This document shows, piece by piece, positions 44,439 through 47,966 of a stretch of DNA of 64,000 bases. The notes below the pieces were generated by a model. The model was not told where the DNA came from and did not search any database. It was given only the letters and a program-made list of their open reading frames with translations. The stretch spans positions 17,382 to 81,381 of the forward strand of contig NZ_AYYP01000022.1 of assembly GCF_001436215.1 (NCBI RefSeq). The letters are read 5' to 3'. The stretch is from Ligilactobacillus agilis DSM 20509 (GTDB lineage Bacteria; Bacillota; Bacilli; Lactobacillales; Lactobacillaceae). The position numbers and the translations under genes were made by a program. Position 1 is the first letter of the stretch, and the number at the start of each line of letters is the position of its first letter.

Positions 44439-44458
44439 GCGTCTTTTTTGCGTATCTT
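44439..44458 (+). promoter_or_regulatory. Possible competence-sigma (cin-box-like) promoter of comEA
   Basis: TTTTTTGCGTATC precedes comEA with no TATAAT-like -10. It matches the streptococcal cin-box TACGAATA at 5 of 8 positions after a T-run, with an mRNA start plausible near the comEA SD. The lactobacillus consensus was not available to me. Confidence 0.35.
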
Positions 44459-44480
44459 AAATATGAAGGGAGGAAAAAAG

Positions 44481-45176
44481 ATGTTAACGGAGCTAATGGA
44501 ATTTTGGGAAGAAAATAAGTTCAAGCTATGTTTGCTAGGAATAGTCCTTTTACTTGGAGGGGGGTATTTTGCTTGGAATAGGGTTACTAAGCCAGGTGAG
44601 GATAGTTTGATGGCAGTAACTAGTTCAAGTGGAGTTAGTAGTCAACTAAGCGCAACCGTTAGTCAATTTAGCCAAAATAAAACTGCTACAAGAATATACG
44701 TTGATGTAAAGGGGGCGGTAAAAAAGCCGGGGGTTTACCAGGTTCCGGCAAACGTTAGGGTTAATTATGTCTTAGCCAAAGCGGGGGGGTTAACTGCTGA
44801 TGCTGACTTAAAACAGGTGAACCTGGCGAGTCAGCTAGTAGATCAGATGATTGTCTACATTCCTCAACAAGGAGAGACTCCGGAGATAAACAGTCCAATT
44901 TTAATTAAAAACCAAGCAGCCTCGGCAGAGACGGAGGCTACTAGCGAAGTTGCTGGAACTGAAGGCCAAGGAGAAACTGATGCAAGTAAGATTAATTTGA
45001 ATACAGCTACAAAAGAACAGCTAATGGAATTAACCGGAATAGGTGATAAAAAAGCGGAGCAAATAATTGCTTACAGACAAGAGCATGGAAAGTTTAACAG
45101 CATTGATGACCTCAAAAATGTTTCGGGGATTGGAGACAAAACCTTTGCTTCCATCTCTAGTCGACTAACGGTGTGA
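44481..45176 (+). CDS. comEA: Competence DNA receptor ComEA
   Basis: Membrane-anchored DNA-binding protein of the uptake machine. 231 residues from ATG 44481, 7 nt after AAGGGAGG; the frame upstream to 44448 is spurious. One membrane span (about 16-33), a Ser/Thr-rich stretch, an SLBB domain (about 72-128, VDVKGAVKKPGVYQV), then a Glu-rich linker and a C-terminal helix-hairpin-helix pair (LTGIGDKKAEQIIAYR, VSGIGDKTF) that binds DNA without sequence preference. Confidence 0.95.
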   Translation: MLTELMEFWEENKFKLCLLGIVLLLGGGYFAWNRVTKPGEDSLMAVTSSSGVSSQLSATVSQFSQNKTATRIYVDVKGAVKKPGVYQVPANVRVNYVLAKAGGLTADADLKQVNLASQLVDQMIVYIPQQGETPEINSPILIKNQAASAETEATSEVAGTEGQGETDASKINLNTATKEQLMELTGIGDKKAEQIIAYRQEHGKFNSIDDLKNVSGIGDKTFASISSRLTV

Positions 45177-45186: not shown

Positions 45187-45216
45187 ATGAATTAAGAATT
45201 TAGTGAGGTGAATCTA

Positions 45217-45705
45217 ATGACTGAAAAAAGAATCCCTTGGGACCAATACTTTATGTTGCAAGCAGTATTGCTATCCTTACGGAGTACTTGCAATCGGTTG
45301 GCCGTAGGGGCTATTTTAGTACGGGATAAGCGGATAATAGCCGGTGGTTACAATGGCTCTGTTTCGGGGGATGATCATTGTTTAGATGCAGGTTGCTATA
45401 TCGTTGACGGTCACTGTTTGCGGACGATTCATGCTGAAATGAACGCCGTGTTACAATGTGCTAAATTTGGGGTAGCGACCGCTGATGCCGAAGTATACGT
45501 AACGGATTTTCCATGTTTACAGTGCACAAAGATGCTATTACAAGCAGGGATTAAAAAGATATATTACCTGCGCAATTATCACAATGATGATTATGCTGTT
45601 AGGTTGTTAAAATTAAAAAATGTGGCTGTTTCTCAAGTTAAAATTGATAAGGAATACTTGCACATGGTCGCCGCTAGTCAATTAAAGATTTCCTTAGATG
45701 ACTAG
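45217..45705 (+). CDS. comEB: ComE operon protein 2 (dCMP deaminase family)
   Basis: 162 residues from ATG 45217, 6 nt after GTGAGGTG. Zinc-dependent deaminase fold: HAEMNAVLQCA gives the His/Glu pair, PCLQCTKML the two zinc cysteines. Members deaminate dCMP to dUMP; ComEB lies in com operons of Bacillus but is dispensable for uptake there. Its stop carries the SD for comEC (AGGAG inside TAGGAG). Confidence 0.93.
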   Translation: MTEKRIPWDQYFMLQAVLLSLRSTCNRLAVGAILVRDKRIIAGGYNGSVSGDDHCLDAGCYIVDGHCLRTIHAEMNAVLQCAKFGVATADAEVYVTDFPCLQCTKMLLQAGIKKIYYLRNYHNDDYAVRLLKLKNVAVSQVKIDKEYLHMVAASQLKISLDD

Positions 45706-45713
45706 GAGTTCTT

Positions 45714-47966
45714 CTGCTAGAACTTAGTTTATTTTTAGCGGCACTAAGTGCGATTTCACTCAGTTTTTTATGGCTTAATTTCACATGGCTTGGTCTTAGT
45801 ATCTGGTTATTACTACTGGTTAGAATGGTTTGTTTGAAGCAACCACGAATTCTAATAGGGAACCTAGTATTTGCGCTGTGTTTTTCACTAAGTGTCATTA
45901 ACTTTCAAAGAAGTTTTCAAAGTAAAATTTATCCAAAGCAGACACCCATAACGGGGCAACTGCAGGTGTATGCTGATCAAACTAAGGTCAATGGCAATCT
46001 AGTGACGTTGGAAGCCTACTGTCCGCAGATAAAACAAAAGGTCCAAGCCTTTTACCAATTAAAGAATCAAGACCAGCAGCAATGGTGGCTTGAAAATCAG
46101 GCAAACTTGCAAGTTGACTTTACTGGTAAAATTAACGGAATTAATGTTCCTACGAACGAAAACGAATTTGATTACCGTCGTTTTTGTGAAACAAAGAAGA
46201 TTGCCAATTCGATTTATATTCAAGCAGCTAGTCCGCAGCCTGAGAAAAAACCAGGCTTAGTGGGGCAACTTCATGAGGTGCGCAGGAGGTTGATGCTTTA
46301 TTTTGCCCGCTTACCACAGCCGTTGGGAAATTACGCCGCGGTCTTATTGATAGGTTATCAACCCCAAGTCTTCGCTGATACCTTAGACCAAATTCGTAAT
46401 TTAGGGCTCTTATACCTATTTTGTCTATCGGGCATGCATGTTTTTTACCTGCTGTTAGTTATTAAGCGAATCTGTAGGTTAGTAAAACTAAGTCAAGAAG
46501 CTACTAATTTACTGACTTTATGTATCATTCCAATCTACGCCCTCCTGGGAGGAGCATCGTTAAGCCTATTAAGAGCAAGTGGGATGGTTTTTATAGCCAA
46601 TTTAATGAAATTGTTAGGGGTTCGGCCTTGGAATTCGTTGAATTCATGGTCACTAGTTGTGCTCGTCAATTTACTAGTTAATCCTGCAGTCGTCTTTAGT
46701 TTAGGTGCCCAGTTAAGTTACTTATTAACCTTGATGATTTTAATTGCCCCTAAGCTTAGTGATATTAAGTTAGGTGTTTATTTAAATCTACTTAGTTTAC
46801 CCTTAATCTTATGGCAAACATACAAGTGGAATTTACTGACGATGGCGCTGACTATTTTAATAATCCCCATTTTTGAATGGTTGATTTTACCAAGCGTAGT
46901 TTTGGGAACTATGTGTCATTGGTTAAGGCCGCTGTGCAACCAAGTTTTAACTGCTTGTAGCCTGGGTTTTGCCTTGTTAAAACGGCTGCCAATGGAAGTC
47001 GTTTTTGGAAAACCGCCGTTAACTATAGTTTGTTTTTGGCTAGGGTTAACGTTATTGCTATTGGTTAAACCAAAGAAAAGGTTAGTTATCTGTTTATTGC
47101 TGACCTATGGGTTAACCTTTATGATGATTCACTTGCCCCTTACAAGTGAAGTGGTTTATTTCGATGTAGGTCAAGGAGACGCAACCTTGATTAGAGATAA
47201 ATTTAACCGGACGGTGACGTTAATTGATACAGGTGGTAAGGTGGCATTTACCAAGGAAAAATGGCAAGTCCGGCAAAGTAAGACGGCGGGGCAGACCGTG
47301 ATTGCTAATTACTTATTGAGTAAAGGGGTCGGGCGGATTGATCAGCTGGTTTTGACTCACCAAGATAGTGATCACGTGGGTAATTTTCCGAGCCTAAGTC
47401 AAGTAATAACAATCAAGCAGATTTTTATTCCGGCCGGGATGGAGAAGTTACCTTCGTTTCAAGGGCGGGTGCGACAAGCAAGGTTAAGTCAAACTAAGAT
47501 TTGGCCGGTAACGGTTGGTAATTCCGCCACCTTAAGGCAAGTTAAACTGTTACACCCGTTTACGGCAGGAAAGGGAACCAATGAATGTTCGCTGGTTTTA
47601 TGGTACAATTTAAAACGGACTAGTTACTTGTTTATGGGAGATCTAGATCGTGCTAATGAGTTAGTGTTGCTAGCAAAGTATCCTAATTTAACTGCAACGG
47701 TCTTGAAGGTGGGCCACCATGGTAGCAAAACTTCATCTGATCCTAGGTTCATAGGCAAAATTAAGCCGCAGTTAGTGATTATTTCTGCGGGCAGACACAA
47801 TCGTTATGGTCACCCCCACCCAGAGACGCTTGCTACTTTGGCTGCGGCTAACATTCCCTATCGTTTGACAGCTCAGCGGGGGATGATAAAGATAGAGACC
47901 GATTTTTTCGGAACTAAGTTAGTCGATTTTGCCCAGCAGACAGGTACTAGTAGCTTTTTGGATTAG
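45714..47966 (+). CDS. comEC: ComEC/Rec2 DNA channel protein, probable CTG start
   Basis: Forms the membrane channel for single-stranded DNA uptake. About 750 residues: N-terminal membrane region, the competence domain with several spans, and a C-terminal metallo-beta-lactamase domain (VGQGDATLI, LTHQDSDHVGN, VGHHGSKTSSDP). The frame is open from 45702 with no ATG, GTG or TTG before ATG 45825, and that ATG lacks an SD. AGGAG at 45704-45708 is 5 nt before CTG 45714. From CTG, two hydrophobic segments precede ATG 45825, as ComEC proteins usually have. If the true start is 45825 the protein loses these. Confidence 0.85.
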   Translation: MLELSLFLAALSAISLSFLWLNFTWLGLSIWLLLLVRMVCLKQPRILIGNLVFALCFSLSVINFQRSFQSKIYPKQTPITGQLQVYADQTKVNGNLVTLEAYCPQIKQKVQAFYQLKNQDQQQWWLENQANLQVDFTGKINGINVPTNENEFDYRRFCETKKIANSIYIQAASPQPEKKPGLVGQLHEVRRRLMLYFARLPQPLGNYAAVLLIGYQPQVFADTLDQIRNLGLLYLFCLSGMHVFYLLLVIKRICRLVKLSQEATNLLTLCIIPIYALLGGASLSLLRASGMVFIANLMKLLGVRPWNSLNSWSLVVLVNLLVNPAVVFSLGAQLSYLLTLMILIAPKLSDIKLGVYLNLLSLPLILWQTYKWNLLTMALTILIIPIFEWLILPSVVLGTMCHWLRPLCNQVLTACSLGFALLKRLPMEVVFGKPPLTIVCFWLGLTLLLLVKPKKRLVICLLLTYGLTFMMIHLPLTSEVVYFDVGQGDATLIRDKFNRTVTLIDTGGKVAFTKEKWQVRQSKTAGQTVIANYLLSKGVGRIDQLVLTHQDSDHVGNFPSLSQVITIKQIFIPAGMEKLPSFQGRVRQARLSQTKIWPVTVGNSATLRQVKLLHPFTAGKGTNECSLVLWYNLKRTSYLFMGDLDRANELVLLAKYPNLTATVLKVGHHGSKTSSDPRFIGKIKPQLVIISAGRHNRYGHPHPETLATLAAANIPYRLTAQRGMIKIETDFFGTKLVDFAQQTGTSSFLD

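Follow-up and report, generated by a model that had tools for sequence, protein, structure and literature searches.

Where does translation of comEC begin in Ligilactobacillus agilis DSM 20509, given that its frame offers no ATG, GTG or TTG until two hydrophobic segments have been encoded? The gene lies on the plus strand of our window, the whole stretch of 64,000 nucleotides analysed here (from a genome of 2.06 Mb in 72 contigs), in the order comEA (44448–45176, longest reading from TTG 44448), comEB (45217–45705, from ATG 45217, with a GTG at 45208), comEC (ending at 47966) and holA. The product of comEC is the ComEC/Rec2 DNA-import channel: it scores 222 bits against TIGR00361 (cut-off 190) and matches PF03772, PF00753 and PF13567 (Competence and Lactamase_B domains); the comEB protein scores 273 bits against TIGR02571 (cut-off 219). 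The comEC frame is closed upstream by TGA 45699–45701 and open from 45702, and its first canonical codon is ATG 45825–45827; translation must therefore start either at ATG 45825 or in the interval from 45702 to the first membrane helix. The original prediction placed the start at CTG 45714–45716, 5 nt behind a Shine–Dalgarno-like AGGAG (45704–45708) that overlaps the comEB stop TAG (45703–45705), and its reading of frame, motif and available codons is correct. Our analysis favours a near-cognate comEC start, probably reached by re-initiation after comEB and yielding little ComEC, a reading to which we assign a probability of about 0.78 on the strength of sequence comparison.

A 41-codon open stretch and one AGGAG prove little by themselves, and it is the comparison with relatives that exceeds chance. 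No NTG codon other than CTG 45714 occurs from 45702 to the first helix, and a comEC read from this CTG spans 45714–47966 (750 amino acids and the stop at 47964–47966). On our tree L. agilis groups with L. salivarius (L008) and L019 (SH-aLRT 90, not starred), and both of these carry an in-frame TTG in the column of the L. agilis CTG in a 10-sequence alignment; L030 has the same junction as L008, and L031 the same as L013 (L. ruminis). When the first 45 residues are compared without gaps, L. salivarius aligns clearly best at offset 0 (49, next 23), and offset 1 scores slightly above offset 0 against L019 (29, 27). Alignment of N-termini had been proposed as a test of the CTG start, and its outcome supports that start because the TTG of the two nearest relatives falls in the CTG column and not at ATG 45825. 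Counting against it, two further genus members (L015 and L016) resemble L. agilis in that their first canonical codon, an ATG, lies well downstream. On this comparison, L. agilis comEC is very probably initiated at CTG 45714, presumably with formyl-methionine.

The L. agilis CTG appears to be one case of a family habit, a near-cognate comEC start at the comEB stop. We gathered junctions at the levels of genus, family, order and class. Of 244 loci with a comEB match, 192 remained once loci without an adjoining comEC and repeats of one junction had been removed, and 189 once L077 and L112 had been dropped as short and L027 as having no alignable N-terminus. (Both short loci have ATT near the comEB stop.) Under a strict definition, no in-frame ATG, GTG or TTG after the upstream stop up to and including the “FPA” column of the first transmembrane segment (TM1), a canonical start is missing from 61 of the 108 Lactobacillaceae with comEC behind comEB, in 13 of the 19 genera sampled, and from 73 of all 189 genomes; as 60 of the Lactobacillaceae genomes were hand-picked across genera, these counts do not describe a random sample. 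A looser first definition had given 67/108 and 86/189, and miscounted four genomes of family f17. Some of the 61 have a canonical codon directly after the TM1 column. By genus, the canonical start is absent in g1 (17/24), g3 (6/6), g5 (3/7), g6 (2/6), g14 (4/6), g21 (3/6), g23 (7/7), g26 (3/3), g30 (11/14), g31 (1/1), g32 (2/2), g34 (1/1) and g36 (1/1), and no copy lacks it in g16 (0/9), g20 (0/2), g24 (0/3), g25 (0/2), g33 (0/4) or g38 (0/4). Outside the Lactobacillaceae it is missing in f3 (5/13), f8 (4/9), f11 (2/8) and f7 (1/8), and in none of the 43 genomes of the remaining families.

The codons that would serve as starts vary. If the start is assigned to the near-cognate codon closest to one alignment column, the 61 genomes divide into ATT (32), ATA (10), ATC (8), ACG (7) and CTG (4). 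The junctions include TAAATTAAAAAT (g23, g3), TAATT (g1, g23) and ATAA or ATAG (g30). The start codon is clearest where there is a single candidate, as in L. agilis and g23; several Ligilactobacillus species have ATA, ATT or ACG in succession, and L006 and L009 would need ACG. In column 41, ATT, ATC or ATA occurs in 50 of the 66 genomes outside Ligilactobacillus with no canonical start at or upstream of it, versus 23 of the 63 with a canonical start upstream (p 8e-6, uncorrected for kinship). Within Ligilactobacillus only 2 of 18 have such a codon there, a count on which we do not lean; we think that the start in this genus is perhaps a few codons earlier. The family f8, perhaps the Listeriaceae (our guess), has purine-rich leaders followed by ATC GAG CGA: the apparent start behind the leader is ATC in L206, L207, L211, L212 and L219 and ATA in L209 and L210, with an in-frame GTG also upstream in L209, L210 and L212, while in L213 this position holds ATG. 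On the family tree the state without a canonical start is present in both deep halves, and no fewer than 13 changes are needed to account for it. The missing canonical start is thus a recurrent feature of many species, and comparison of their junctions argues that a near-cognate comEC start is conserved.

Neither sequence quality nor a general habit of these genomes explains the pattern, since canonical starts are universal in two control genes, comEB (111 of 111 Lactobacillaceae loci) and holA (28 of 28 Ligilactobacillus records, two of them named records that repeat genus genomes). The disputed stretch itself behaves as a reading frame. In 22 within-genus pairs (19 in Lactobacillaceae; L. 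agilis, having no close enough partner, was excluded), differences fall on codon positions 1, 2 and 3 in the ratio 78:38:116 (420 codons, p 1e-7), compared with 2123:1158:3754 in the rest of comEC; the likeness of the two patterns indicates that the stretch evolves as coding in the comEC frame, and the segment after the near-cognate codon is thus probably translated in the relatives.

This coding pattern also bears on the possibility that these species no longer have a comEC start and that the gene is degenerating in them, an alternative that we consider very improbable. The gene is indeed broken in two genomes, G010 and G014, and L. sakei did not yield natural transformants (PMC3364868). However, most genomes have full-length comEC frames, the disputed stretch has the same third-position bias as the rest of the gene, H549, D551, D553 and H554 are invariant in 13 Ligilactobacillus ComEC sequences, and the near-cognate state is found in both deep halves of the tree. 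The two broken copies differ in kind: comEC of G014 (L025/L029) is split into two separate open frames, and that of G010 (L027/L028) has a TAA inside the match and lacks its 5′ part. Another locus, L003 (G025), has an out-of-frame ATG with a long T run behind it just before comEC, where slippage or a run-length error could matter.

ATG 45825, with the open frame upstream of it an untranslated leader, has in its favour that it is the first canonical in-frame start, and yet it is a very improbable one. It would be residue 38 counted from the CTG, and a protein beginning there would lose the whole segment of residues 1–37 (45714–45824). The two hydrophobic segments noticed in this stretch are seen as helices at residues 2–21 and 25–40 in an AlphaFold prediction read from the CTG on a 13-sequence genus alignment (mean pLDDT 82.5; 84–91 in the first four blocks of ten residues, which hold the predicted helices of the disputed segment), so a start at the ATG would cost the protein helix 1, almost the whole of helix 2 and the first 18 residues of the DUF4131 match. 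It would also remove Arg37 (45822–45824), the residue encoded just before the ATG, which is nearly invariant in the 13-sequence genus alignment. Ligilactobacillus comEC copies with an intact 5′ end retain the upstream helices, and the equivalent stretch evolves as coding in relatives. The Shine–Dalgarno duplex is weaker at the ATG (−2.7 kcal/mol) than at the CTG (−6.8 kcal/mol). We rejected ATG 45825 on the TTG column, Arg37 and the predicted helices.

No start codon would be needed at all if frameshifting or stop-codon readthrough fused ComEB to ComEC, and 13 of the 61 genomes without a canonical start do have the two genes in one frame across the comEB stop. However, comEC lies in one other frame in 39 and in the third in 9; the two g32 species are in different frames and both keep ATT; and the TGA directly upstream of the comEB stop in L. 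agilis leaves few bases for a slip. That comEC may stand in any frame relative to comEB speaks against fusion, which we rejected as a very remote prospect. Initiation at another near-cognate codon, such as ATT 45753 within the open segment, or spread over several codons, is just as improbable, for this ATT falls within predicted helix 1, beyond the column in which the relatives have their TTG.

How, then, might ribosomes find a near-cognate start? Although comEC occurs in all three frames relative to comEB, its starts stay near the comEB stop: the assigned starts lie at −8 to +21 nt from it in all 61 genomes without a canonical start, and the L. agilis CTG lies at +11. Re-initiation after comEB at a weak near-cognate start is in our judgement the likely mechanism, at odds somewhat better than even. 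Ribosomes would finish comEB at UAG, held in L. agilis by AGGAG, and would re-initiate a few bases downstream at the weak start codon; synthesis of ComEC would then require translation of comEB and would reach only a small part of the comEB rate, and discrimination by IF3 against such codons would lower it further. The geometry in L. agilis and in the family fits such coupling, which the original prediction had also proposed. Re-initiation in an E. coli reporter was down to background once the gap reached 40 nt (PMC2268962). The same paper describes how excess IF3 lowers both initiation at non-canonical codons and re-initiation without a Shine–Dalgarno sequence. As IF3 affects both features, comEC combines two IF3-sensitive ones, and by analogy ComEC itself would respond to IF3. 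The geometry of stop and start is the same as in coupled gene pairs with NTGA (−4) or TAATG (−1) (PMC12548453); unlike those pairs, the comEC junctions ATAA/ATAG and TAATT lack the G of the start codon.

Two further devices, strong Shine–Dalgarno sequences and RNA structure, were considered and rejected as shared family traits. Across the family the near-cognate sites pair with the ribosome no more strongly than random positions (mean −2.46 vs. −2.22 kcal/mol), and a duplex of −6 kcal/mol or better is present at 15% of them vs. 13% of random positions within comEB in the family set. Extended Shine–Dalgarno motifs are found in parts of g1 and g30 and are absent from g23, g32 and most of g14 and g26; with a family mean not above random, an extended motif of the kind present in the S. 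aureus cases discussed below is not a property of the comEC sites as a whole. The RNA of 45660–45780 in L. agilis has a strong predicted structure that encloses AGGAG and CTG (−33 kcal/mol, z −3.07, the third lowest of 90 windows), including a predicted hairpin at 45706–45725 with the CTG in its loop and the GAG of the Shine–Dalgarno-like motif in its stem. Family junctions fold alike with and without a canonical start (mean z −0.86, n=47, vs. −0.80, n=61), which speaks against a conserved structural switch; the predicted hairpin, which is not a family trait, may add to coupling in L. agilis.

A near-cognate start would not be foreign to this cell. The start of infC, which encodes IF3 and begins with AUU or AUA, is a conserved near-cognate start like that of comEC, and it has a reason in feedback. 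In L. agilis infC has ATA behind GGAGGTGA, as in all 21 Ligilactobacillus loci read (of 26; 5 were missed by the search pattern), and the genus probably starts infC with ATA. The next in-frame infC ATG follows five codons after the ATA in L263 (G000) and the 20 other genus loci, and in L250 and L252 the ATA is also preceded by an in-frame TTG and GTG. The ATA of L. agilis stands at the place of the AUA mapped as the infC start in S. aureus (PMC13009471), which makes it probable that near-cognate initiation is used elsewhere in the cell. The two genes differ in setting: infC stands behind GGAGGTGA, whereas comEC often has no Shine–Dalgarno sequence, sits on the stop of the preceding gene and varies its codon by species.

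The proposed comEC start would also resemble those of pcnB, cvfC1, ccpN and rnhC, near-cognate starts that limit yield. E. coli pcnB is said to owe its limited yield to an AUU start. In S. aureus, cvfC1 (AUU) and ccpN (AUA) are limited in this way, and near-cognate starts give about 10% of the AUG yield in poor medium and, for ccpN in rich medium, up to 30% (PMC13009471); L. monocytogenes rnhC starts with ATC (PMC13068326). The S. aureus cases have extended Shine–Dalgarno motifs, whereas no such motif precedes comEC in g23, g32 and most of g14 and g26. Analogy with the starts measured in S. aureus and L. monocytogenes (PMC13009471, PMC13068326) leads us to infer that ComEC is kept low, and the absence of a normal start in over half of the relatives examined suggests that it is made in small amounts. 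In L. monocytogenes comEC itself is among 39 genes with a flexible start codon (PMC13068326); this variation resembles the ATC and ATA of the f8 loci and may concern the same site.

A natural contrast is offered by Lactobacillaceae in which comEC does not follow comEB. In 30 of 31 such loci comEA is the upstream gene (32 genomes were searched, G071 and G103 had no locus, and L014 was added; the copy of L276 lacks its 5′ end and was not counted as readable, and the second tree was built without L276, L294 and L297). All 30 readable copies behind comEA have ATG, GTG or TTG before or in TM1, and in 16 of them the distance of the first such codon to the comEA stop is −4, −1 or 0 nt. A canonical start is thus missing from 61/108 copies behind comEB vs. 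0/30 readable copies behind comEA, although the Fisher p of this contrast takes no account of kinship, and with only four or five independent changes of neighbour on the tree a sign test cannot reach significance. In L014 (G015) no comEB stands between comEA and comEC, and comEC has an in-frame GTG. The contrast suggests that weak comEC starts accompany comEB as the upstream gene, perhaps because translation of comEB may not be confined to competence. More speculatively, and we regard this as doubtful, the comEC start codon of Lactobacillaceae might be an attenuator tuned to the preceding gene: behind comEB, AUU, AUA, AUC or CUG would allow only trace, IF3-sensitive ComEC, and behind comEA comparable stop/start overlaps would use AUG, GUG or UUG.

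Our literature search, with subscription journals mostly outside its reach, recognised no report of a near-cognate comEC start in lactobacilli, and among the texts that it covered comEC and “non-canonical start codon” occurred together only in the L. monocytogenes report (PMC13068326). Retention of a near-cognate start is known from few genes (infC, pcnB, cvfC1, ccpN and rnhC being those named here). To these comEC would add a gene with the trait in much of a bacterial family, and its junctions would serve as natural replicates of AUU, AUA, AUC, CUG, GUG, UUG and AUG at about one position, some of them without a Shine–Dalgarno sequence. Gene finders limited to ATG, GTG and TTG would truncate ComEC in these species by starting it too far downstream. 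The finding also touches on L. sakei, in which sigH induction raised comEC mRNA and gave no transformation (PMC3364868): weak translation of ComEC is one possible cause among many, and a near-cognate comEC start makes the puzzle testable at the level of the codon. If the tentative attenuator reading were true, re-initiation at near-cognate codons would act widely as a translational brake on DNA uptake, and would be among the reasons for which induction of com genes in a lactobacillus gave no transformation.
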